A stretch of 64,000 nt of DNA from contig JAOAJK010000007.1 in the NCBI GenBank assembly GCA_026414225.1, positions 21,851-85,850 of the forward strand. Reading direction: 5' to 3'. This DNA comes from Thermoplasmata archaeon. Its GTDB lineage: Archaea; Thermoplasmatota; Thermoplasmata; Lutacidiplasmatales; SKW197. Shown here in pieces: positions 1 to 56,645 of the stretch. The notes below the pieces were generated by a model. It was not told the DNA's origin and did not search any database. It saw nothing but the letters and a program-made list of their open reading frames with translations. The translations under genes were made by a program, and so were the position numbers. Each line of letters starts with the position of its first letter. Positions within the stretch are counted from its first letter, which is position 1.

Positions 1-1533
1 ATTGCAAAGTTTCTTACAAAGAATTATGTTGTGGCTGATGAAGGTGCGGTGGCACCGATTCTTAACGGAAGCAATCTGATGGCTGTCGGGGTTGTGGAGG
101 CAGAGGAAACCATAGAGGAAGGCGATGAGGTCATTGTGCTGGATAATCTGCGGAGACCCCTAGCAGTAGGGGTTGCAAAGATGGATGCTCAGGAAATGCT
201 GAAAATAACTGAGGGAGAAAAGAGAGGCGTGGCGGTGAAGGTGCGATGGAAGGAGGGCTGGAGGGAACCCAGAATCCTGAAGGATACTATCACCGGCTGG
301 AAGCGGATTGCGGAGGGAAGCAGGGGAGTCCTGGCAAAAAGGGAAGAGATGGCTGTGAACTTCATAAAGAGTGTGGTGGGCAAATACAACAAGCCAGTAG
401 CGGTGTCCTTCAGCGGCGGGAAGGACAGCATGGTCACCCTGCTTCTGGTGCTGAAAGCTGGGCTGAAACCCAAGATTCTGTTCGTGGACACGGGACTTGA
501 GTTGCCCGAGACAGTGGAATATGTGAAACAAACTGCCGGGAAATTTAATCTGGAATTGCTGGTCGACACGGCTGGCAACTCATTCTGGGAAAATCTAGAG
601 CTCTTCGGACCACCTGGCAGGGACTTCCGATGGTGCTGCAAACTCTGCAAACTCGGGCCTACGGCCAGATTGATAGCAAACAATTTTCCGGGTGGTGCGG
701 TCGTCTTCATAGGGCAGCGGGTTTATGAGTCCGAGCAGAGGGCGCAGAAGGGGAGTGTATGGGATAACCCCTGGGTGCCTGGACAGATAGGGGCTTCGCC
801 CGTCCAGTACTGGAATGCCCTGCACATCTGGCTTTACATCATGCTCTCCGGTGTTGAAATCAATCCCTGGTATGCGGAGGGAATGGAGCGGATAGGGTGC
901 TATCTCTGCCCCGCCTCAAGTATCGGTGACTTTTACATAATCAGGAAAAAGTTCAGGGAATTTGAAAAATGGGAGAAATACCTGAAGGATTATGCACTGC
1001 GGCACAATCTCCCTGCAGAATTTCTGAAGTACGGACTCTGGCGGTGGCGAAAGCTCCCGCCCGGAATAAAGGAGTATATTGGGGGTGTTGAAGTAAGGCA
1101 GGTGGAGAAGGGGATTGAGTTACGGCTGGCTGATAGTTACTCTCCGTGTGTTGGAGGGTATAGAATAGAAGGGGTCTACAACACGAAGTTTGAGCTTGCC
1201 CGCATTGAAAATCTGCTGAATATCATTGGCATTCCGAAATGTCAGGAGGGAATGTGTGAGATAGATTTTGCACAGGTATTCGCGGAAGGGGCAATTGCTG
1301 TGAAGGGTAAGGATGAGCAGGAAATGCGTGGCAATCTGGAAAAACTTCATGCTGTGATAATGAAGGCCGTTTCGTGCGTCAGATGCGGAATCTGTGCCAG
1401 CAGGTGTCCTCAGGGGGCAATCACCGTTGATGAAAAAGGGATAAAGATAGATGCGGGGAAATGCGGGCACTGCGGCACCTGCCTCCAGCCCTGCCCGGCG
1501 GTGGTTTATAGACAGGACACGGAGGTCTGGTAA
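1..1533 (+). CDS. PAPS reductase/ATP-PP superfamily protein with N-terminal PUA-like region and C-terminal 2x[4Fe-4S] ferredoxin domain (5' partial)
   Basis: PP-loop motif SFSGGKDS; CxxC pairs (WCCKLC, GCYLC); C-terminal CVRCGICASRCP...CGHCGTCLQPCP. Frame is open from base 1 (IAKFLTKNYVVADEG...), so the GTG at 31 is probably not the true start. Confidence 0.85.
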   Translation: MAKFLTKNYVVADEGAVAPILNGSNLMAVGVVEAEETIEEGDEVIVLDNLRRPLAVGVAKMDAQEMLKITEGEKRGVAVKVRWKEGWREPRILKDTITGWKRIAEGSRGVLAKREEMAVNFIKSVVGKYNKPVAVSFSGGKDSMVTLLLVLKAGLKPKILFVDTGLELPETVEYVKQTAGKFNLELLVDTAGNSFWENLELFGPPGRDFRWCCKLCKLGPTARLIANNFPGGAVVFIGQRVYESEQRAQKGSVWDNPWVPGQIGASPVQYWNALHIWLYIMLSGVEINPWYAEGMERIGCYLCPASSIGDFYIIRKKFREFEKWEKYLKDYALRHNLPAEFLKYGLWRWRKLPPGIKEYIGGVEVRQVEKGIELRLADSYSPCVGGYRIEGVYNTKFELARIENLLNIIGIPKCQEGMCEIDFAQVFAEGAIAVKGKDEQEMRGNLEKLHAVIMKAVSCVRCGICASRCPQGAITVDEKGIKIDAGKCGHCGTCLQPCPAVVYRQDTEVW

Positions 1534-1553
1534 TCTCCTTATCTGGCAAACAG

Positions 1554-3776
1554 TCAGTATCTCAAAATCTCATCGAATCGTTGCTCGATTATTCTTGTCT
1601 TCTCCTTTTCAAGGCCACCAGGTGTCATTTCAACTATCAGTGTGCTTCCCGAGATTGAATTCTCATCATCAATCGCCTTCAGGAAGTCAACCACAGCCTT
1701 GAATTCATTTGAGAGAAGTGCGTTTGAAAGGGCGTCGAAGAATACAAGTCCGTGGGTCTCCCGCATGAAATCCAGAATTGTCTTCAGAACCTCGAATTCC
1801 ATCCGGGAGGGGCGGAGCACATTCTCGTATCCCTCGGACTCGGTAAACCAGTAGATTTCTGCGTCCGTGAGCCTCGGGTCTTCCCTGAGCTTTTTCGGGA
1901 AATTTTTCGTGATGATGAGGGCTTTTCTTCCTTTAATCAGGTTCCTTATGATATCAATTGTGGTGGAATTGGTTTCGACGAGGTAGGAACGCCCGAGCAC
2001 TGGCTGAAAACCAGCGGTCACCTCTCTCACAGCAATGTCCTCCTGCTTATCCACAATTTTGCTGAACAGCGTGCGGAACACGGCTGCATCCTTCTTGGAG
2101 AAGGTGTTCAGGTCTGCGGTAACCAGCAGCGCGGTGCTGTTCTGCATCACCTTATCAATCACCGTCTTGATAAAATTCATCACGGCTTCAATCCCATTGT
2201 AGAGAGCCATCAGTTCAATATCATCGATTACTATCAACCCGCCTTTTGCTTCACTGAGGAAGTTGGAGATTTCATAGGTGATTTCAAAATCAAGGCGCCT
2301 TATATCGTATCTCGCCTCCACAGAGTAGCTATCGGTGAGGTACGCAAAAACTGCCTTCTCAAGTCCATGCGATTTCTTCAATCGCTCAGGGTAGCTGGTA
2401 GTCATGATGAGGACCCTATCCTTCTTCAGAAACTCTGAGGCAGAGGCATAGGCCAGCTTTACATTGTTTGTGTTGAGGAAGCACACCTCTCCGTCCCCGA
2501 CTTTGATAACTTCTGCCGGGGGTTTCTCCGGTTTATCCTCGCGGGCTTTTTCTGGCTGTGCTTTCGGTTTCCCCTGCTGGGTGAAAGAAGTATAGCTTGC
2601 AATCTTTCTGAATGATTCCAGGTATTTCAGGGTCTCAACATACTGCTTCCGCTTGAAGGCGATGGTTGCCTGCTTCAGAATTGCAGCCAGATTTTTGACA
2701 TTTGCTCCTGCATACTTTTTCTCAACCAGCACCCTGCCAAGGTCTGCAATCTCTCCGTGGATTCTCGCATTCATCTCCTCAAGCAGCTCTCCTTTAAACT
2801 TTTCAAGCTCAGAGGGTGTGGCAGTGTATCTGAAACGTTCATACCTCTCCTTCTCATCCCTCATGTCAAGCCCGTATCTTTCCATTGCAGTGAGCACCCG
2901 CTCAAATTCGTCCGCACTCTCCTTCTTCTCTCCGGGTTTTGCAGCAATTCCCAGCATCTCCCGCAGGTTGTCGTAGATATTCACCGCCTCTATGATTTCC
3001 CGTCTCCCGATGCAATCCCTCGCCTCCATCAACATCTTTCTCTCCCTGCTCATGTTGGTCCCGTGTTTCTCCAGCAATCCGATTTTTCTCTCTATGTTTT
3101 CCAGAAGTTCATTCAACTTCTTCACATTCGTTTCTCTCAGAAGGGCAATCGCATCGTTCAGATACTTCAAGGCGGTTTGAATATCCCCCTTCTTCGCAAA
3201 CTGGACGCCCTGGGCTATGTAGGACCTCGGTGCGGAGAGTTCGGCCTCGAGCCGCGTGCCCGCGGTCATCAGAGCTTTTGCCTCCGCCGTTTTCAAGCTA
3301 AGTTCCTTGTCAGGGGTGAGGGATTCAGGCGTTCGGGGCGGTTCGGGCACGGCCGCAGGGGTCTTCGGCTTCGTGACCTCCCTCACATACTCCACCTTCT
3401 CCACAACAACCTTCGGTTCTTTTTTCTCGGCACTAACCTCTGGTTTTTTGTCGGGAGGAGGAACCGGTTTCTTCTCTTCTCTGACCGGTACTGGGGCAGG
3501 TCTGGGGGGTTTCTCTTCAATCTCGAGTTCCGAGAGGTCAAAGATACTAGCGTCTCCGGATTTTTGAGGAGGGGTTTCGGGCGCGGGTTCGGGAGCTTTT
3601 GCTGAATCTTTGGAAACTTCATCGCCAATCACGGAGGAAAGCAAGTCGTCCAGCGCCTTCTTTTTGTCCTCAACCGTTACAGCAAAAAACTCAAGGTCAA
3701 CACCGCAGCTGGGGCATACCGTGTCATTTTCCCCCACTTCCGAATCACATGCCATGCAAACCCTTTTCTTAGCCAT
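1554..3776 (-). CDS. Zinc-ribbon protein with helical central region and tandem C-terminal DUF835-like domains
   Basis: N-terminal CMACDSEVGENDTVCPSC; Pro/Glu-rich linker; two repeats of the form 'LIVIDDIELMALYNG...' and 'LVFFDALSNALLSNE...'. Confidence 0.8.
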   Translation of the reverse strand: MAKKRVCMACDSEVGENDTVCPSCGVDLEFFAVTVEDKKKALDDLLSSVIGDEVSKDSAKAPEPAPETPPQKSGDASIFDLSELEIEEKPPRPAPVPVREEKKPVPPPDKKPEVSAEKKEPKVVVEKVEYVREVTKPKTPAAVPEPPRTPESLTPDKELSLKTAEAKALMTAGTRLEAELSAPRSYIAQGVQFAKKGDIQTALKYLNDAIALLRETNVKKLNELLENIERKIGLLEKHGTNMSRERKMLMEARDCIGRREIIEAVNIYDNLREMLGIAAKPGEKKESADEFERVLTAMERYGLDMRDEKERYERFRYTATPSELEKFKGELLEEMNARIHGEIADLGRVLVEKKYAGANVKNLAAILKQATIAFKRKQYVETLKYLESFRKIASYTSFTQQGKPKAQPEKAREDKPEKPPAEVIKVGDGEVCFLNTNNVKLAYASASEFLKKDRVLIMTTSYPERLKKSHGLEKAVFAYLTDSYSVEARYDIRRLDFEITYEISNFLSEAKGGLIVIDDIELMALYNGIEAVMNFIKTVIDKVMQNSTALLVTADLNTFSKKDAAVFRTLFSKIVDKQEDIAVREVTAGFQPVLGRSYLVETNSTTIDIIRNLIKGRKALIITKNFPKKLREDPRLTDAEIYWFTESEGYENVLRPSRMEFEVLKTILDFMRETHGLVFFDALSNALLSNEFKAVVDFLKAIDDENSISGSTLIVEMTPGGLEKEKTRIIEQRFDEILRY

Positions 3777-3929
3777 GCCTTCTGCTGGTAGTAAGTAAAG
3801 AGGAGTATATAAAATATCTGATTGTGAAATCTGGATTTAATGAAAACATAATACAGTGGGTTTGTTGGAATAGAAACAGTTATAAATATGTGTAGGTATT
3901 GGTTATAAAAAGTTCTGAAGAGGAACAAC

Positions 3930-4790
3930 ATGCCTGATGAGGTGCTCTACGACCTGGAAAAGAAAATTCAGGAACTGAATGCGGAAGCAGAAAGGTACAG
4001 GCAATTAAGGGATAATCTGAATGCCGAGGCGAAGAGATGGGTGGAGGAGCGGGACAGGCTAAACAACGAGGCCAAGAAGCTAGCAGATGCAGCCAACGAA
4101 CATAAGAACAAGCGTGAGGAGTACAATATCAAGGTGAAGGAAGAGAAGTTGGAGAGGGAGAAGTGGAATAAGAAGACGTTTGAGATTGCAGATAAAATCA
4201 GGATGGCAAAACGGAAGAAGATGCCAAAAAATGGCGACCCCATAGCCAAGTTGAAGAAGGAACTGAAGGAACTTGAGTTCAAGCAGATGACCTCCGTACT
4301 TTCCAGGGAGAAGGAAGAAGAACTCATAAAATCAATAGCTAGATTGCAGGCGGAGATCAGGAAGCGGGAGAAGGAGATAGAGGAAGATGAGGAGATCAAG
4401 GCCCTCACAAAGGAGTATGAACAGGCAAAGGAAGCGGCCGAGCGCCACCATAAACTTGTGAACGAGTATGCAGAGATTGCGCAACGAGAGCACGAAAAAA
4501 TGGTGGAACTTTTTTCAAGGGCAGATGATTTAAGGAGACAGGCGGACGAAGCCCAAGAGAAATTTGTGAAGGCAAAACTGGAGGCGGATGAAGCCCATCG
4601 GAAGCATGTAGATAAGATCCGTGAAATCCACGACATTGAAAAGATGGTCCACGCCCTGAAGCAGAAGACGAAGAAGGAAGCAAAGACAGATGCGGATAAG
4701 CAGGCGGAAGAGATTTACCAGAAGTTGATGAGCGGGAAGAAAATTACCACCGAGGAGCTCATTATACTTCAGAGGGCCGGGAAGGCCTAA
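3930..4790 (+). CDS. Archaeal coiled-coil protein (COG1340-like)
   Basis: Almost entirely charged heptad-rich sequence with the N-terminal pattern typical of the family. Confidence 0.75.
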   Translation: MPDEVLYDLEKKIQELNAEAERYRQLRDNLNAEAKRWVEERDRLNNEAKKLADAANEHKNKREEYNIKVKEEKLEREKWNKKTFEIADKIRMAKRKKMPKNGDPIAKLKKELKELEFKQMTSVLSREKEEELIKSIARLQAEIRKREKEIEEDEEIKALTKEYEQAKEAAERHHKLVNEYAEIAQREHEKMVELFSRADDLRRQADEAQEKFVKAKLEADEAHRKHVDKIREIHDIEKMVHALKQKTKKEAKTDADKQAEEIYQKLMSGKKITTEELIILQRAGKA

Positions 4791-4796
4791 AATGCT

Positions 4797-5528
4797 CTAC
4801 TTCACCAGGGCCCGCAATTTCTGGGCATCGTTGAACATGCTTGTGTTGTTGAAGAAAACATATGCCTTCTCTCCATCCAGGCTTTTTATCTCGGATGCAA
4901 GGTTTTCCAGTTCATCCAGTGTGTAGGTGTGCCTGTATCTCTCCCCGCCATGCAATCGGAAGTAGTAATATTTTCCTGATACTGGCTTCTTCCGTGTGGG
5001 GTCCACGCAGTGATAAATTTCAAATTCTTCGCAGAGGGCTTTCACCGTCTCCTCGCTCCATTTACCCCGGTATTCCCAGAAAATCAGAAAATCCTTCGCC
5101 CTTATTTCGGCCAGGAAATTGCGGAGGTTTGCAAGATTTTCCGGGCTCTGGTTGAACGAGGGCGGGGACTGGAGCAGAATAGTATTTGAATGGAGTTCTC
5201 TTGCTATTTTTAAGGTGTGGTTCCAGGCACCGAGGACCTCCTCCGTGAGCTTGAAGTCCCCGTAATTGCCCTTTTTTTCTTCAGGAATCACAATCCCTGC
5301 CTTTGCGTAGGTGCTTCCTGGCCTGTGGGTAATGAACTGGTGGGCTTTAACTGCAAACTGAAAATCTGGTTTTATGGAGGTGACCTTCTGCCACCAGTTC
5401 TGGGCGGTCTTTTCCGGAATCAAACGGTAGAAGGTCTGCTGGATTTCAACAGCATCCAGCACCCCCACATACTTCTCGATACCAACTGGAAATCCACAGC
5501 ATCCAATGACGATATCCTCTGTTCTCAT
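4797..5528 (-). CDS. DUF72 (YecE-like) family protein
   Basis: IGCCGFPVGIEKYVGVLDAVEIQQTFYR...FQFAVKAHQFITH...YYYFRLHG; GGTGAGT Shine-Dalgarno before the ATG at 5528. Confidence 0.85.
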   Translation of the reverse strand: MRTEDIVIGCCGFPVGIEKYVGVLDAVEIQQTFYRLIPEKTAQNWWQKVTSIKPDFQFAVKAHQFITHRPGSTYAKAGIVIPEEKKGNYGDFKLTEEVLGAWNHTLKIARELHSNTILLQSPPSFNQSPENLANLRNFLAEIRAKDFLIFWEYRGKWSEETVKALCEEFEIYHCVDPTRKKPVSGKYYYFRLHGGERYRHTYTLDELENLASEIKSLDGEKAYVFFNNTSMFNDAQKLRALVK

Positions 5529-5558
5529 ACTCACCTTTCCATAATACACTGCCTTAAC

Positions 5559-8258
5559 TTATTTTTTTCTAAATGTGTAAAAAAGGGAGCAAACGGTGAA
5601 AAACAGCAGTAGAGAGGGTAAAACAGGAGGTTCAGAGGTGATTGCAACAGTAAACGAAACCTCAGTACTCGTGTTCCTGTCGTCCACGATAAAGCTAGAA
5701 ATAAGCCCAAAATCCCGGAGGGTTATCCTTATCTCATCGGTGGTGGTAGAGTGCAGGTCGTTGAGTTCAGCTTCGTAATAGCCAAATTCATCTGTTGTGA
5801 TTGACAGGTTCTCGTTGTTCGCGATGTTTGTGACCGTAATGGTGGCGTTAAACACGGGGTCTCCCGTCGCCGCATCCAGCACATAACCATAGACACTGTA
5901 TGGGGTCTCCAGCCTCCCGAATATCTGGAGTTCCTTTATGTGGTACCACTGGTTTGCAGAGTTGTAGGTGCCGGTAATTCTGAGGAATCTAGCAGGGGTA
6001 TCAATCTGGTCCCACTGCCAGCCCCTGTACTCTCCGGAGGTTTTGTTAACGACCTCCATCCATGTTTCGTTATCCCTTGAAACCTCTATTTTATACTGGT
6101 AGTATCTGTTATCCCCGTCCCACCAGTGGGTTTTGACTGCCCTGATTGTGTGATTGCATTTTAGGGCGATGTAGAGATACTCGCCCAGATTGTTGGCAGC
6201 ATAGTTGTCATCGTTATCGTCTGTCAGGTTGTTGGCACTGCTGCTTCCCCAGACCTTACCTTCGAATGCCAGGTTCCGTGTAAAAAACAGGGACCACAGG
6301 ACAGTCCGTGCATTTCCCCACAGGTCAGAAACTTCAAAGCTCAGGTTTTTCCAGCCCACGGAAAAGGAATAGGTGTTGAAGGAAACAGGGGCTTGCTGGG
6401 GTGTGTCAAAGAACCATTCTCTGGCGTAGGCGGTGTTCCAGCCACCGCTGTCGATCCTCCATCTGCACCCGGTTAGGAGGCCGGCATTTACATACGCAAA
6501 TCCAAATTTGACGGTGCCGGTTACACTTGAATTGTTCTGGGGAAAAGAGACACTCAGCGAGGCATTGCCGTACACCGGAGTAACCCCGAAGTACGCGCAG
6601 ATTCCCTCGTAGATTGCAAGGGCAGCCAAGGTCCGTTTCGAGTACTGGGAGACCATACCAAAATCAGTATCATTGGATATGAAGCAGACCTCCGTTAAAA
6701 TTGCGGGCATGTTCGTGTGGGCGAGCACATAAAGGTGGTAGCCGAAGTAGGGATAGTCCCCCTTTATCCCCCTGTCATAGGTACCGAGACGGGAAACCAC
6801 CTTTGCCTGCACATTCTGGGCAAGGCGCTTGCCTTCAACACTGTAATCCGTGTCCGAATTTGCATAGTAGAAGGTCTCGGTCCCTCTTGCGGTTCCTGTA
6901 GCGGAATTCATGTGAATGCTGACAAAAATATCTGTGTTTGCATTGTTTGCAATATCGCAACGCTGCTGGAGCGATACATCCGCATCCGTGGCTCTCGTGA
7001 GCGTTACGGTGGCACCTGCAAAGCTAAGCAACTCCTTCACTCGAAGGGCAATATCTAGATTAAAGTCCTCTTCATTCGGAAATCCAGAGCCATCAATTCC
7101 TGTTGCTCCGGTATCGCCGCCTCCATGACCGGCATCTATCGCGATTTTCTTGCCTCCGAGGGAAAGAGTTCCACCAAACATCTGGCTTATCACTTGCCAG
7201 ATACTCGGCACCTCATACCCCAGCGCCCACATCCCGGTGCCCTGCAGCTGCCTCTCAAAAACCAGGTTGAACTTAATTCCCAGGGACTCCGTGTCATCAT
7301 ACCAGCACTGGTGCCATACACCGTCTGCCTGGTAAGCATACCAGGGGGTACTCGAGGCATTGTGCCACTTTCGCGCGTAGTTCTGGGCGTTTGCTACCGC
7401 GGTTTTCATCACCACGGCTGTACCTGTGCTAGATGTGGGGGCGCCCGCACTGTCGCTAGCGCAGGGCCAGTCAAATCCGTAGAAGGGGAGGAGGAGAACA
7501 ATCTTGTTTCCAGGCAGGTAGTTGAGGTAGGTGTTCACCGTGTAGGTTAGGTCGTAGGTGTACCCCTCAAGCGGTGCCACAGGGCCGGTAGTCCCAGAGC
7601 CAGACCAGAAATAATCATAACCCATGATAAGGAACGCATCGAGACAGTTCGTGAGATTGTTGTTGCGGAACACATTGCTCCAGTCCACCGCAGGTGCACA
7701 GAGGCTCACATGATACTCAGAATTTGCGGTTTTGCATTTTGCGTAGAGTTTTTCCATGAAATTCTGGAGCAGCAGTTTGTTTGAAATTCCATTTATTGCG
7801 TTGGTAGCCCGCACACCCTCAAAGTCAATGCAGACACCATCGCAGCCATAGTTTTGCATCCTCGCGAATATATTGTTCACGGCAGTGTCCATATAGTTTG
7901 CAAGCACACTGTCTATGCTGGTTGAATTAAAACATGTGATTGTGAGCGGAACCTTGACACCGTTGGCGTGGGCCTGGCCTAGCAGTCCAGATGGTAGCGG
8001 GTGGGAGGCGGAGACCGTGCCTGTTGAGGATAAACTTTCACCGAACCATGATACATGGGTGAGCACTGCCCATTCCGGGCTGTAATTTGCGGAAGTCCAG
8101 TATGGGAGGAATCCGTAGATTGTGTGGTTTGCGGTTTTCCAGATGGGCTGGGGGAAAGGATGATTGGGTTCAGACGCTGGATTTGCCCGCCCGTCGAGTG
8201 CCGAAAGGAGGAGAACAGTGCAGAACAGGGTGCCCAGCACGGTCGGGAGTTTATTCAT
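5559..8258 (-). CDS. Secreted GH18 (YaaH/SleL-like) glycosidase + N-acetylmuramoyl-L-alanine amidase (Amidase_3) + discoidin-like + CarboxypepD-regulatory-like domains + C-terminal TM
   Basis: Signal peptide MNKLPTVLGTLFCTVLLLSALDGRA; GH18 motif DGVCIDFE; amidase zinc/catalytic motifs DAGHGG, NEEDFN, VSIHMNS, LTEVCFISN; C-terminal hydrophobic segment LPSLLLFFTVCSLFYTFRKK. Confidence 0.88.
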   Translation of the reverse strand: MNKLPTVLGTLFCTVLLLSALDGRANPASEPNHPFPQPIWKTANHTIYGFLPYWTSANYSPEWAVLTHVSWFGESLSSTGTVSASHPLPSGLLGQAHANGVKVPLTITCFNSTSIDSVLANYMDTAVNNIFARMQNYGCDGVCIDFEGVRATNAINGISNKLLLQNFMEKLYAKCKTANSEYHVSLCAPAVDWSNVFRNNNLTNCLDAFLIMGYDYFWSGSGTTGPVAPLEGYTYDLTYTVNTYLNYLPGNKIVLLLPFYGFDWPCASDSAGAPTSSTGTAVVMKTAVANAQNYARKWHNASSTPWYAYQADGVWHQCWYDDTESLGIKFNLVFERQLQGTGMWALGYEVPSIWQVISQMFGGTLSLGGKKIAIDAGHGGGDTGATGIDGSGFPNEEDFNLDIALRVKELLSFAGATVTLTRATDADVSLQQRCDIANNANTDIFVSIHMNSATGTARGTETFYYANSDTDYSVEGKRLAQNVQAKVVSRLGTYDRGIKGDYPYFGYHLYVLAHTNMPAILTEVCFISNDTDFGMVSQYSKRTLAALAIYEGICAYFGVTPVYGNASLSVSFPQNNSSVTGTVKFGFAYVNAGLLTGCRWRIDSGGWNTAYAREWFFDTPQQAPVSFNTYSFSVGWKNLSFEVSDLWGNARTVLWSLFFTRNLAFEGKVWGSSSANNLTDDNDDNYAANNLGEYLYIALKCNHTIRAVKTHWWDGDNRYYQYKIEVSRDNETWMEVVNKTSGEYRGWQWDQIDTPARFLRITGTYNSANQWYHIKELQIFGRLETPYSVYGYVLDAATGDPVFNATITVTNIANNENLSITTDEFGYYEAELNDLHSTTTDEIRITLRDFGLISSFIVDDRNTSTEVSFTVAITSEPPVLPSLLLFFTVCSLFYTFRKK

Positions 8259-8336
8259 TGATTTAAGTAGGTATCGGGAAATAATATATCTTTCGCCTAC
8301 CCAAAACCATATACCCCCCATATCCTTCTCCCTTCC

Positions 8337-9443
8337 ATGCCATCAAAACATTCTGAAAAGAAACTTGAAAAAAGTGCACTGGCAACAGTGAAGAATGCCC
8401 TGGCGGTAAAGAGGGGCGAAAGGGTCCTGATAGTTACAAATCCGTCAGAGGATGTGCTGGCGATTTCAACAGCATTGTATAGGGCATCTGCAGAGAGAGG
8501 TGCAAAACCGGTCATGTGCATCCAGCCGAGAAAGACCCAGGTCGACTTCATGGAGAAGATTGTAAGGAGGGCAATTGAAACGGAGCCAGAAGTTGTGATG
8601 TCTATTTCCGAGATGAAGCTGGGAAAGGATGAGGAAGCCCTTACAAATCCTTATGTGGTTAACGGTAAGGAATACACTCACATCTTCGATGCCTACATGG
8701 CAATGAAGAAAATTCGCACCATCTGGACGCCAGGGATTACGAGGAAGATTTTCGAGAGGGCGGTGGACATCAACTACGGGAAGATGGCAAGGGATGCTGA
8801 GAAACTGGCAAGGGTGTTCGAGGGAGCAGGGGCCGTGCACATCCAGAGCAACGCAGGTACCGATGTAGAAATTGGAATTGAGGGACGGAAACCGAAGAGG
8901 GATGATGGCAATTATCGGGTTCCTGGGACAGGAGGCAACATTCCTGCAGGTGAGGTCTATATCTCGCCGGCCATCGGAAAAACAGATGGAACAGTGGTTT
9001 TTGATGGGTCAATATCTACATACTGGGGAGATGTGGTCACAGGGAAACCCGTGCGGGTTGAATTCCGAGGAGGATATGGGGACACAATCACGGGTGGAAA
9101 TGAGGCCAGAATGCTCCAAAAAAGCATTGCCCTTACAAGGAAGAAGGTGAAGGAGCTGGAAAAGAGTGGAAAATTTGATACAAACAAGGCCGAAATTTAT
9201 CTGAAAAACGCTACCCACCTTGGAGAAATAGGTATAGGACTTAATCCCGCGGCGGTGATATGCGGCAACATGCTGGAGGATGAGAAGGTCTATGGCACCT
9301 GTCATCTAGCAATAGGTGCGAACTTTGACGAGGATGCACCCGCCCTTAATCACTACGACTGTTTGATCAAAAAACCCACAATCAGATTGCTTCAAAAAGG
9401 AGAATGGGTCCAGATAATGAAAAATGGGGTGCTGAAAATCTAG
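8337..9443 (+). CDS. M29-family aminopeptidase (thermophilic metalloprotease family)
   Basis: ALAVKRGERVLIVTN...; VPGTGGNIPAGEVYISP; HLGEIGIGLNP; CHLAIGAN. Confidence 0.88.
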   Translation: MPSKHSEKKLEKSALATVKNALAVKRGERVLIVTNPSEDVLAISTALYRASAERGAKPVMCIQPRKTQVDFMEKIVRRAIETEPEVVMSISEMKLGKDEEALTNPYVVNGKEYTHIFDAYMAMKKIRTIWTPGITRKIFERAVDINYGKMARDAEKLARVFEGAGAVHIQSNAGTDVEIGIEGRKPKRDDGNYRVPGTGGNIPAGEVYISPAIGKTDGTVVFDGSISTYWGDVVTGKPVRVEFRGGYGDTITGGNEARMLQKSIALTRKKVKELEKSGKFDTNKAEIYLKNATHLGEIGIGLNPAAVICGNMLEDEKVYGTCHLAIGANFDEDAPALNHYDCLIKKPTIRLLQKGEWVQIMKNGVLKI

Positions 9444-9449
9444 GAAAAA

Positions 9450-9623
9450 TCATTCAAAAGAGGCCTCAAACTCTTCCTGCAGGTCAATTACTACCTGTTC
9501 CAGCACCTCGTTTATAGAGTTGCTCTTGTACTCGCGGACACCACCTACTTCGCTCTGAACTCTCGCCAGGTAGATGTTCGCCTGTTTTATGAACTCCACT
9601 GTGCAGATGACTTCTTCTACCAT
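9450..9623 (-). CDS. 57-aa small protein absent from the supplied ORF track (below its length cutoff)
   Basis: MVEEVICTVEFIKQANIYLARVQSEVGGVREYKSNSINEVLEQVVIDLQEEFEASFE*; GGAGG Shine-Dalgarno 8 nt upstream of the ATG. Confidence 0.7.
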   Translation of the reverse strand: MVEEVICTVEFIKQANIYLARVQSEVGGVREYKSNSINEVLEQVVIDLQEEFEASFE

Positions 9624-9775
9624 TCGCAATGCCTCCAGCTTTGTTTTGTCTTTTCACCTATATCACTTAATGTATATATTTTTATTCCCTGCTTGTGATG
9701 GTAGCAATTTTTATATAACCGTATCCGTTTCGTAACACCAATTGCAAAAAAGTGCTACCTACCAGAGGTGAAAAA

Positions 9776-10090
9776 ATGTGGCTGATAACCACTACTGTGT
9801 GCGCAATGGCCGCTACAGCTGCCTACTTCGTGCTTGAGAAACAGAGAAAAGCAGGAAAAAAGTACAAGGTTCACTACCTTTCCCTGATGCTCTGGGGTGC
9901 GGCGATGATGATTCTGGTTGACCACGCTATCGGGTACATTGAGGAAGGCGGCAGCTTTATAGAGGTTGAAACGGACGGACTTGTGACCAACGGAGCAGTG
10001 CTCGGTCTCTTGATGCTGCTCCCAGTGCTCGGTGTCTGGCTGGGTAGCATCGGAATTGAAAAGATGCTGGAAAAGAAAGAACAGAGGTGA
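9776..10090 (+). CDS. Small multi-TM membrane protein, tandem paralogue 1
   Basis: GAGGTG SD before the ATG at 9776; hydrophobic segments; motif LSLMLWGAAMMILVDH shared with the next ORF. Confidence 0.7.
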   Translation: MWLITTTVCAMAATAAYFVLEKQRKAGKKYKVHYLSLMLWGAAMMILVDHAIGYIEEGGSFIEVETDGLVTNGAVLGLLMLLPVLGVWLGSIGIEKMLEKKEQR

Positions 10091-10095
10091 AAGAA

Positions 10096-10428
10096 ATGGC
10101 TTGCTTTCTAGTACCGACGGCCGTGGGTTTTATCGTGCTGCTGATTGCGGTGTTTGGCAGAACCAGATTTTCAGCGATATGGAGAACACGAATTGCAGGG
10201 CTGAACCTGATGCTCTGGGGCGGTTCCCTGATGCTGGCAGTGGAGCACTACGCCCACCAGGAAATTGTGCCCTATTTCCCGTTCCTGACAAGGGGAATGG
10301 ATGAGGTACTGCCAGAGCTTGTTACCGTGGGCGTTCCGATGACCCTCGTGATTTTCGCTGCCTGGGGCATAATGGTTGCGGTGAGTACAAAGGTTCTCGC
10401 GCCGGAAAAAACAACCAGCAAAGCATAA
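10096..10428 (+). CDS. Small multi-TM membrane protein, tandem paralogue 2
   Basis: GAGGTG SD overlaps the stop of the upstream gene; motif LNLMLWGGSLMLAVEH. Confidence 0.7.
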   Translation: MACFLVPTAVGFIVLLIAVFGRTRFSAIWRTRIAGLNLMLWGGSLMLAVEHYAHQEIVPYFPFLTRGMDEVLPELVTVGVPMTLVIFAAWGIMVAVSTKVLAPEKTTSKA

Positions 10429-10476
10429 AATATTTTCTCTCAATCCTTTTATATACTCCCTGTTTTTCTTTTCTTC

Positions 10477-11472
10477 ATGAGCAAGATTTCGGAGTGTTCA
10501 GAGGGGCAGAGGATTGCGGGCAAGTTTGTGGTCTGGGAAAAGGACTTTATCAAGGATTATTCCCGTGGGAAATTTTTTAAGATCACGATTTCAGACGGGG
10601 AGGCGAGAATGCCGCTGAAATTCTGGGGCGCACCTATGCAGTCAAAGGTAGTAGAACTGTATGAGGCAATAACTCCATGCAAGACCCTTGTAGAGGTTGA
10701 AGGAAATGTGGTGATGGACGGGTTCACAAATACACTTACCCTGAACATAAACGAGGAGAATGACCGTTTTAGAATCTGCACTGAAGAGGAGACAAAAGGA
10801 ATCCAATTTGTTCCAGCAACCCGGAAAAACAGGGAGGAACTGATGAAATTCATTGAAAGAGAGATTGAAAAAATCGGAGAACCAAATCTCGGTGCCCTGC
10901 TCAGGGCAATCTTTGCCGATGAGAACCTGAAAAAGAGCTTTATGGAAAGTCCAGCTGCGAAAATGAAACATCATGCGTATATCGGCGGTTTGCTCGAACA
11001 CACCTGCAATGTGGTAAACCTATGTAGCACCCTCTGTGAAATCTACCCTGAACTTGATAGAAATTTGCTGATAACTGGTGCAATTCTGCATGACATCGGC
11101 AAAATCCAGGAGTACAGTGTGGCCCTTGCAATAGACACCACCGATGCAGGCAGATTCCTCACCCACACATACATCTCGATTGAAATTATCGAGAACAAAC
11201 TTCGCCAGCTTCCCGGTTTTCCTGACCAACTGAAATGGAAGCTCTACCACATCATTCTCCGCCACCACGGGAGATACGCAAGCCAGGAAACGATCGAGGG
11301 CAAGACATCCTGGGTAATCCCAGAGGCCTGTGCGCTTTATTATGCGGATGACATGGATGCCAGGGTTAAGAATTTTCTCCAGGAGATTGAGGAAGGCAGA
11401 AAAGCCGGGGAAAGCTGGAGGTTCGTGAAAGACCTCGGCGTCCAGATATATATAGAGGAAGAGGATGAATAG
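10477..11472 (+). CDS. OB-fold + HD-domain protein (YhaM-like 3'-5' exoribonuclease family)
   Basis: N-terminal OB-like region; HHAYIGGLLEHT...AILHDIGK HD motif. Confidence 0.82.
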   Translation: MSKISECSEGQRIAGKFVVWEKDFIKDYSRGKFFKITISDGEARMPLKFWGAPMQSKVVELYEAITPCKTLVEVEGNVVMDGFTNTLTLNINEENDRFRICTEEETKGIQFVPATRKNREELMKFIEREIEKIGEPNLGALLRAIFADENLKKSFMESPAAKMKHHAYIGGLLEHTCNVVNLCSTLCEIYPELDRNLLITGAILHDIGKIQEYSVALAIDTTDAGRFLTHTYISIEIIENKLRQLPGFPDQLKWKLYHIILRHHGRYASQETIEGKTSWVIPEACALYYADDMDARVKNFLQEIEEGRKAGESWRFVKDLGVQIYIEEEDE

Positions 11473-11683
11473 GGCAGAGCTGAAAATAAGGTTTGATAGC
11501 CGGGAAACTGCGGAGATAGTGGCCCGTGCAATTGAGCTTGAGAATGAGGGTTATGTGACGATGAGGGTGGAGGATAATGAAATAGTGGCTGTTGCTGAGG
11601 CAGAGAATTTGCTCGGCTTGCTCCACACATTTGATGATTTTCTTGCCTGCGCTGCGTTGGCGCACAAAGCGAAAAGAATTTAA
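11465..11683 (+). CDS. KEOPS complex subunit Pcc1-like
   Basis: 72 aa; RAELKIRFDSRETAEIVARAIELEN...LLGLLHTFDDFLACAALA. Confidence 0.75.
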   Translation: MNRAELKIRFDSRETAEIVARAIELENEGYVTMRVEDNEIVAVAEAENLLGLLHTFDDFLACAALAHKAKRI

Positions 11684-54920: not shown

Positions 54921-56645
54921 TTATTTAACTTTCTTTTTGGGATACTGAGACCCGACGAACGCGCAAATCATCCCCGCGAAAACGGAGCAGGCAATCAGCA
55001 ACCGTCCCCCTTCAGGAGCTGCTGGCTGGACGATGACGGTATAGTTGCTACTCGTGCCCGTGCAGGCCCCGGAATCAACTGCATAAAAGTAATATTCAAC
55101 GGTGCCTGGGGCACTCTGGGCAGGAATCGTTGCGGTGTAATTGCCATCGGTTGAATTGCCCGCGGTGAGGGACATTCCCATCGCATACCATGTAACTTCA
55201 TTTACTGGCTTGTAGTACAACCATACACCCGAAAGCGGGAGCGTGCTCGCAATCCTGACGGAAATCGGGATGGGCTCTCCCTGCAGCACGGACGCTGGTG
55301 GTGTGTGTTCAAACACAATTTTCGCCTCAAGTGTGACATTCGCGTACACATAACTCCCTGCATCCGGTATCGACACGGGTGTCTCATCTGACACATTTGT
55401 TATTCCCCAGCTGTAATCGGTTGCGTTCAAAAACTGGATTGAGCCAGTAGTTCCAGAGTAGGCATCATTTACCTTCACAAAAATTCTGTTTCTCGCGCTG
55501 TGGTTGATATACCCAATCCCGTCTGAAAGGTCAACCACAAGGTTGCAGTTTGGAAATGCATGTCTCTGGTAGTTCGAGATGCCCACATACGCCTGGATTG
55601 AATTGAAATCCAGGATTTTGAGAGAGTACTGGGGGGAGGTAAGATTTCCGATGCCCGCAGTAATACCATTCCACATTATCTCGCCCCTTGCATTGTGCTG
55701 GACTTTCACCTCCGCAACCAGGGCAGGGGTGTAGTTTGTCCTGTCTGTAAGAAAATATGCCGTGGGGTAGCATGTGACCGTGCTCTTCACCGCCGCATAG
55801 GACATCCAGAAATGGCCTGCGTCGCCCCACGAAGTTCCCCAGGAATTCACGAGGCGGAAGGCACCAGCCCCATCGCTTGTCTGCTTGTCATCGTCAAACC
55901 CGTAGATGGTTACCGCATGGGCGCCCCTGTTGGTACCGGTCACTTCGGATACACAGTAGGTGTTGTTGTAGTTCGAGATGTAGTCAAAATTGGAGTACAC
56001 ATTGATTGCAATCACCGCGGTGCCACCGTTAGCAATGTGCTGTTTCAGGTTAGTTATCCCTGCATCTGTTGATACGGAGAGGTAGGAATAATTCCATGCC
56101 CTTAACTGGAGGGCATTCCTGTAGGTCTGGGTCGAGGTGGGCCAGGAAGTAGCATCGCTTGCACTGTAGGGGACCTCCTGCAGGGAGGCACAGCCCAGCG
56201 TGCACAGGAACTCCATTGCCTCATGGATGTAGCTGCCAGTATCTGAACCGCCGTTGATGTGGTGATAGAGGAATGCTGGGGAGCATTGATTTGATGAGAG
56301 GTTAACATCCCAGTTTTTCTCCCGCCATTCCAGATGGGTTCTGTGGTAGTAAGCACTTGCCCAGGAGGTGCAGGAACCCTGCGAACCCTGGCTCCTCACA
56401 GGAGGAAGGCCAGCGCTGTTTATCACAGAACGGATTGTGGGATTGGTTCTTATGTCAAGTTCTGGTGTTGTGGGACCAATGTAGTTCACCCTGTGCTCGG
56501 GAATCACCGTATCCGGGTTAACGATCAGCGCCCCGAGGCCATGCTCGGCCAGCACAGAATCTGGACCCACTGAAAACTTTTCAGCTTGACAGTAAAGGGG
56601 GCACACCACGAACGCCAGCAAAATTATCATCGCAAATTTCCGCAC
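54921..56645 (-). CDS. Secreted papain-like (C1A) cysteine peptidase with C-terminal TM
   Basis: Signal peptide; VRSQGSQGSCTSWASA (Q/C), RGAHAVTIYGFDD (H), FRLVNSWGTSWGD (N); C-terminal TM and lysines. Confidence 0.9.
   Translation of the reverse strand: MRKFAMIILLAFVVCPLYCQAEKFSVGPDSVLAEHGLGALIVNPDTVIPEHRVNYIGPTTPELDIRTNPTIRSVINSAGLPPVRSQGSQGSCTSWASAYYHRTHLEWREKNWDVNLSSNQCSPAFLYHHINGGSDTGSYIHEAMEFLCTLGCASLQEVPYSASDATSWPTSTQTYRNALQLRAWNYSYLSVSTDAGITNLKQHIANGGTAVIAINVYSNFDYISNYNNTYCVSEVTGTNRGAHAVTIYGFDDDKQTSDGAGAFRLVNSWGTSWGDAGHFWMSYAAVKSTVTCYPTAYFLTDRTNYTPALVAEVKVQHNARGEIMWNGITAGIGNLTSPQYSLKILDFNSIQAYVGISNYQRHAFPNCNLVVDLSDGIGYINHSARNRIFVKVNDAYSGTTGSIQFLNATDYSWGITNVSDETPVSIPDAGSYVYANVTLEAKIVFEHTPPASVLQGEPIPISVRIASTLPLSGVWLYYKPVNEVTWYAMGMSLTAGNSTDGNYTATIPAQSAPGTVEYYFYAVDSGACTGTSSNYTVIVQPAAPEGGRLLIACSVFAGMICAFVGSQYPKKKVK

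Follow-up and report, generated by a model that had tools for sequence, protein, structure and literature searches.

A candidate two-enzyme peptidoglycan hydrolase joining GH18 and Amidase_3 domains at the surface of a Thermoplasmatota archaeon

Introduction

What use would an archaeon that makes no murein have for a surface protein that joins a GH18 glycosidase to a zinc amidase? This question is raised by a gene on the minus strand of a 64,000-nucleotide stretch of DNA (hereafter the window) from a genome of the class Thermoplasmata, whose product a sequence-only reading had proposed as a candidate peptidoglycan hydrolase. GH18 is mostly a family of chitinases, and its SleL-type members attack cortex peptidoglycan by cleaving the glycan adjacent to GlcNAc; enzymes of the Amidase_3 family cleave the MurNAc-L-Ala bond. 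Archaeal antagonism towards bacteria, or feeding on them, has drawn attention only recently and has seen little testing. Archaeal peptidoglycan hydrolases, some of them bacteria-killing, have already been published (PMC12352652 and PMC4241558) and are also covered in a primer (PMC12356512). The novelty here is the two-enzyme GH18-amidase fusion, archaeal peptidoglycan hydrolases as such being already known; in the literature searched, of which coverage was partial, we found no description of such an archaeal fusion.

Results

Domain organization of the protein

The open reading frame was called at 5559..8321 (minus), and its upstream ATG at 8321 would place 21 additional residues ahead of the signal peptide. 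We took the gene to be 5559..8258 (minus), as the ATG at 8258 yields an 899-residue protein with a clean signal peptide. The two most hydrophobic stretches, residues 3-23 and 877-896, fit a signal peptide and a C-terminal transmembrane segment. The former, predicted from hydropathy only, is of the Sec type and covers approximately residues 1-28 (8175..8258, minus; hydrophobic maximum at residues 4-23), and the N-termini of relatives are likewise hydrophobic. The latter, a hydropathy maximum at residues 877-896 (5571..5630, minus), is the putative membrane anchor and has a basic tail, FRKK.

Between them lie two catalytic domains. The GH18 domain spans residues 44-363 (7170..8129, minus), as supported by Pfam, tree, model and Foldseek; the Pfam match itself covers residues 100-348 (E 7e-27, 95 bits against a cut-off of 29.6), and motif alignment places the catalytic motif DGVCIDFE at residues 140-147 (7818..7841, minus), with D140, C143, D145 and the catalytic E147. 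It is followed by an Amidase_3 domain (PF01520) at residues 372-554 (6597..7145, minus; E 2e-49, 168 bits against a cut-off of 27), which was also recovered by model and Foldseek. Its zinc ligands are H378 (7125..7127, minus) in DAGHGG, which begins at residue 375, E396 (7071..7073, minus) in NEEDFN from residue 395, and H449 (6912..6914, minus) in SIHMNS from residue 447; the catalytic glutamate is E523 (6690..6692, minus) in LTEVCFISN from residue 521. All four residues are invariant in an alignment with 11 homologues.

The C-terminal part appears to be built of accessory modules. Residues 565-656 (6291..6566, minus) gave no match in the Pfam search and probably form an Ig-like linker domain, since they look Ig-like by eye and are strand-rich in the model, at low confidence. 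They are followed by an F5/8 type C (discoidin/CBM32-like) domain at residues 673-777 (5928..6242, minus; Pfam F5_F8_type_C, E 1.5e-9) and by a CarboxypepD_reg-like beta-sandwich at residues 788-832 (5763..5897, minus), whose 29.8 bits fall under the cut-off of 32.3. F5/8C domains bind many different glycans. Besides the enzymes, Pfam gave only these last two domains, and thus no recognised peptidoglycan-binding domain, in the 899-residue protein. Pfam, motif positions and hydropathy therefore bear out the parts that the sequence-only reading had listed, namely the signal peptide, GH18 motif, complete set of Amidase_3 ligands, discoidin-like module and C-terminal transmembrane segment, and the CarboxypepD_reg match is an addition to that list.

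Fold and nearest relatives of the catalytic domains

In the AlphaFold2 model of the full chain, the GH18 and amidase domains mostly have a pLDDT above 90, and a model of the amidase alone has a mean pLDDT of 92. Since the catalytic domains combine pLDDT values of about 90 or more with E-values of the order of 1e-27 and 1e-49, chance domain matches can be ruled out. Foldseek with the predicted amidase model returned CwlV (1jwq) first, with TM scores of 0.86/0.93. CwlV and Cwp6 of C. difficile (5j72) match the window amidase in fold (TM 0.86), zinc ligands and catalytic glutamate, are 35-36% identical to it and share its compact form without a large insert, but they are bacterial wall autolysins without a GH18 fusion. 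Among the bacterial relatives sampled, amidases in genomes carrying this GH18 mostly gave split matches, implying a large insert.

Foldseek with the GH18 model returned Bacillus SleL (4s3j) first (E 3e-21), as anticipated from the YaaH/SleL analogy drawn in the sequence-only reading, which had also called for profile and structure checks that both catalytic domains now pass. Chitinases were matched as well, at E 1e-17 to 1e-20. In phmmer searches against solved chains, 4wiw, YdhD and SleL gave E-values of 4e-18 to 4e-17 and chitinases 3e-9 or weaker, a lead of about 8 to 10 orders of magnitude for the SleL/YdhD type. By sequence comparison, the GH18 domain is nearest to SleL/YdhD-type enzymes rather than to chitinases. 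SleL/YaaH (4s3j, 4s3k) and YdhD (3cz8) are the closest solved structures and have the same fold, at approximately 20-23% identity; they are bacterial spore enzymes lacking both an amidase and a membrane anchor. To our knowledge, the GH18 clade to which the window domain belongs has no characterised bacterial member.

The classical DxxDxDxE motif is incomplete here, with Cys143 in place of the middle Asp, which could mean that the GH18 half has lost its activity and serves as a glycan binder. One relative does hold such a copy: in the tandem GH18 protein of genome G206, the first copy truly lacks the catalytic Glu (DGVLVDFP). We consider this very improbable for the window protein, which retains the catalytic Glu and the adjacent Asp. 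Across the clade, the D, D and E of the motif are kept (D145 and E147 here), and the Asp at position 4 has been lost, most often in favour of N and otherwise of S, A, V, M or C; in solved SleL, YdhD and 4wiw the position is occupied by H, T and V, respectively, so that 4s3j and 3cz8 resemble the window GH18 in lacking this Asp. As neither the clade nor SleL has it, its absence is no defect, and as it is also missing from YdhD and 4wiw, the full motif does not define the subgroup. The cysteine and the retained glutamate had been correctly noted from the sequence; the substitution belongs to the loss seen across the clade and is no oddity of this gene.

Genomic context of the locus

The contig bearing the gene is 85.8 kb long and belongs to a genome of 1.9 Mb in 84 contigs (94% complete, contamination estimate 0.05). 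Compared with the same-genus genome G087, the gene exactly fills a synteny break: window positions 1-5570 match contig C12 at 78% identity and positions 8341-11661 match contig C22 at 77%, so that the similarity reaches the borders of the gene from either side, with the two flanks falling on different contigs of G087. No GH18 or amidase of this kind was found in G087. Such conservation right beside the gene speaks against contamination, and the break shows that presence of the gene varies among members of the genus. An insertion at this site cannot be polarised, because loss in the sister genome together with rearrangement is equally possible.

Bacterial contamination, which had been named as a finding that would overturn the proposal, or misassembly at the locus might be suspected from the fragmentation of the assembly into 84 contigs and from the position of the gene at the break. 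We regard this as extremely improbable, given the archaeal 23S rRNA gene on the same contig (39659-42566 of the window, plus), the conserved flanks, the low contamination estimate and the closest homologues, which are archaeal and, for the amidase, from Thermoplasmatota.

Several other features of the region were observed. No 16S rRNA gene lies beside the 23S gene in the window, so the rRNA genes may be unlinked. The window also encodes a papain-family (C1) protease of 574 residues (54921-56645, minus), another possible digestive enzyme. In G087, a gene for a 2253-residue protein with a C-terminal partial Amidase_6 match (L134, contig C22, 11816-18574, minus) lies a few kb from the M29 gene adjoining the site homologous to that of the window gene, with an AFOR gene in between.

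Recurrent GH18-amidase fusions in the class

Homologues were found in 18 of 300 genomes of the class, and a search of 400 class genomes for the GH18 clade (E under 1e-60) returned 13, including that of the window. In 12 of these 13, which represent perhaps three or four lineages and are thus not independent samples, the GH18 domain is fused in one protein to an amidase-type domain, either Amidase_3, Amidase_2 or Amidase_6, the last being only a putative amidase according to Pfam. The order of domains differs by Pfam: GH18-Amidase_3 in the window protein, Amidase_2-GH18-Amidase_3 in G126, Amidase_3-Amidase_2-GH18 in G055 and G048, Amidase_3-GH18 plus a truncated Amidase_2-GH18 in G079, and Amidase_6-GH18 in G011, G042, G023, G017, G046, G595 and G607. 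These relatives are bigger than the window protein (958-2114 aa) and carry an extra Amidase_2, or Amidase_6 instead. Most Amidase_6-GH18 proteins have a weak SH3 match. Those of G017, G046, G595 and G607 share the F5/8C module with the window protein, and the CarboxypepD_reg tail recurs in G607 (34.7 bits, above cut-off) and in G595 (below cut-off). The sole exception among the 13, with no amidase domain, is the tandem GH18 protein of G206 (L029, contig C32, 5188-7536, plus), which has a transmembrane segment and whose Glu-less first copy is perhaps a binding domain. The 42 bacterial GH18 relatives scanned showed no amidase domain; SH3_3, which is frequent in enzymes of the bacterial wall, was present in 12 of them and a T9SS tail in 18.

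Two further kinds of protein were noted. A 424-residue protein from the same class (L043, G030:C37, 1115-2386, minus) combines Amidase_3 with Glucosaminidase (PF01832), and is thus a further predicted wall hydrolase of two enzymes, built with another glycosidase. Additionally, MAGs of Bathyarchaeota, Hecatellales and Methanophagales encode big secreted proteins (L044, L045 and L046) in which this GH18 occurs with transglutaminase and a sub-threshold NlpC/P60 match, or with peptidase C25. The NlpC/P60 match of the Bathyarchaeota relatives falls slightly short of the cut-off and was left out of the fusion count.

The joining of one GH18 clade to three amidase families, repeatedly, is our strongest argument for peptidoglycan as the substrate; on this comparison of sequences, the recurrent fusion favours bacterial peptidoglycan over chitin or the archaeon's own glycans. 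Counting against it are the archaeal relatives that pair GH18 with peptidase C25 or transglutaminase and have no amidase, and given these partners the GH18 domain may serve broader biomass degradation. If so, it would act on chitin or another non-murein glycan as part of a general biomass-degrading enzyme, in keeping with the dominance of chitinases in the family, the chitinase matches in Foldseek, and the Methanophagales and Bathyarchaeota partners. We find this improbable, because the domain is fused here to a MurNAc-L-Ala amidase family, as it is to amidase-type domains in nearly all class genomes that have it, because its sequence is far nearer to SleL/YdhD, and because SH3_3 occurs in its bacterial relatives.

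Phylogeny and origin

Phylogeny against bacterial homologues, which the sequence-only reading had suggested, places 12 archaeal GH18 sequences, that of the window among them, and one from a Dehalococcoidia MAG in a single clade (SH-aLRT 100) nested among bacterial lineages. The Dehalococcoidia member (L048) shares DGVCIDFE, which could reflect transfer to Chloroflexota or a binning error. Next to Myxococcota lies another archaeal clade, made up of GH18s of the Amidase_6 type. In the amidase tree, the window sequence joins homologues from Thermoplasmatota (99/98), separately from the clade of the reversed-order proteins (100/99), so that the two Amidase_3 orders, GH18 first and amidase first, track two different amidase clades. 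A single joint clade of the two was not rejected (AU p 0.23), and thus the domain orders show shuffling, not strictly two amidase acquisitions. The trees fit an old acquisition from bacteria followed by shuffling. A phage origin was considered and set aside, as phage GH18 matches are just 23-28% identical, and phage amidase matches, up to 38%, are endolysins. A single-domain GH18, 38% identical to that of the window, is encoded near a site-specific integrase on a plasmid of Methanosarcina sp. Kolksee (L174, 3429-4469, plus), and a second Methanosarcina plasmid carries the same match.

Host physiology

No Mur ligase was found in the host genome, which indicates that the host makes no murein. 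McrA is absent from the genome, excluding a methanogen, and anti-phage defence was set aside for want of a PADLOC match. MurQ gave only sub-threshold matches, and MurNAc recycling through it was not retained. Two oligopeptide-binding proteins (SBP_bac_5) are over the cut-off. With these two proteins and no MurQ over the cut-off, use of peptides is more plausible than use of MurNAc.

We know of no self substrate of Amidase_3 in archaea of this kind, which bears on whether the protein might be an endoglycosidase and amidase remodelling the archaeon's own surface glycans or S-layer. Its membrane anchor, the glycosylation of archaeal surfaces and its own 17 N-glycosylation sequons, against 10.7 expected, would suit such a role. 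It is nevertheless highly improbable in our view, since the gene is missing from a same-genus genome and from most of the class, unlike a housekeeping remodeller, and the host has no Mur ligase.

Discussion

We believe that the window protein is quite probably a secreted, membrane-anchored bifunctional hydrolase of bacterial peptidoglycan on the surface of a murein-less archaeon, likeliest for digesting bacterial wall material; the candidate peptidoglycan hydrolase of the sequence-only reading is thus supported, on the strength of sequence comparison and predicted models. This proposal as to substrate, bond specificity, topology and ecological use builds on the domains, residues, predicted fold, location and recurrent fusion observed directly. 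The SleL-type GH18 would cut the glycan strand as an N-acetylglucosaminidase by a substrate-assisted mechanism, with E147 as acid and D145 as helper, and the zinc amidase (H378, E396 and H449, with E523 as base) would cut the MurNAc-L-alanine bond and free the stem peptide, while the F5/8C and Ig-like modules may bind glycans or act as spacers. Together, the two enzymes would turn wall into sugars and peptides near the archaeal surface, where peptides could be imported. The most likely use would be as food, taken from the wall material of dead or living neighbours, and killing might be a by-product or the main purpose.

This last point raises the question of whether the protein serves mainly to attack or prey on living bacteria, and less to feed on debris. 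Its patchy occurrence (18 of 300 class genomes, with absence from the same-genus genome) resembles that of the weaponised hydrolases described in PMC12352652, the gene is located at a synteny break, and other archaeal hydrolases are published as killing bacteria. We nonetheless think a mainly offensive role possible but rather unlikely. The anchor keeps the enzyme at the producer's surface and the published examples are diffusible, large multi-enzyme architectures look like digestion, the peptidoglycan of living diderm bacteria is shielded, and patchiness fits scavenging as well. The anchor and the host's peptide-binding proteins speak somewhat more for digestion close to the cell than for a weapon. 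Scavenging has been raised as a possibility for A. boonei (PMC4241558), and PMC12352652 reports an enrichment of Opp uptake in those archaeal genomes that encode peptidoglycan hydrolases.

Woldo and Danwoldo (M23 or glucosaminidase; PMC12352652) and the GH25 muramidase of A. boonei (PMC4241558) are like the window protein in being secreted archaeal enzymes against bacterial peptidoglycan with a patchy distribution traced to bacterial sources. Woldo and Danwoldo have one catalytic domain and peptidoglycan-binding repeats; the window protein differs in its second catalytic domain, its membrane anchor and the absence of any known peptidoglycan-binding domain. The survey in PMC12352652 defined modular hydrolases by at least one peptidoglycan-cleaving catalytic domain together with at least one Pfam wall-binding domain, and found a secretion signal peptide in 32% of its set. 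The window protein has the first (Amidase_3), lacks the second and, by hydropathy, has a signal peptide. As that survey left aside proteins in which no wall-binding domain was recognised, it would probably miss the window protein.

Within a single archaeal class, GH18 and amidase domains are combined again and again, often with no wall-binding domain (some relatives show a weak SH3 match), and the pairing would unite two complementary bond specificities. This suggests that archaeal peptidoglycan hydrolases are commoner and more elaborate than has been counted, and the window protein offers a well-delimited candidate that could be expressed and mutated at clear active-site positions. Tentatively, and with somewhat more doubt than confidence, we propose that Thermoplasmatota may have evolved, several times, modular surface enzymes that each hold two or three peptidoglycan-cutting domains, with the SleL-type GH18 in common and amidases swapped freely, and that these wall-less archaea may partly live by digesting bacteria, through predation or necrotrophy.
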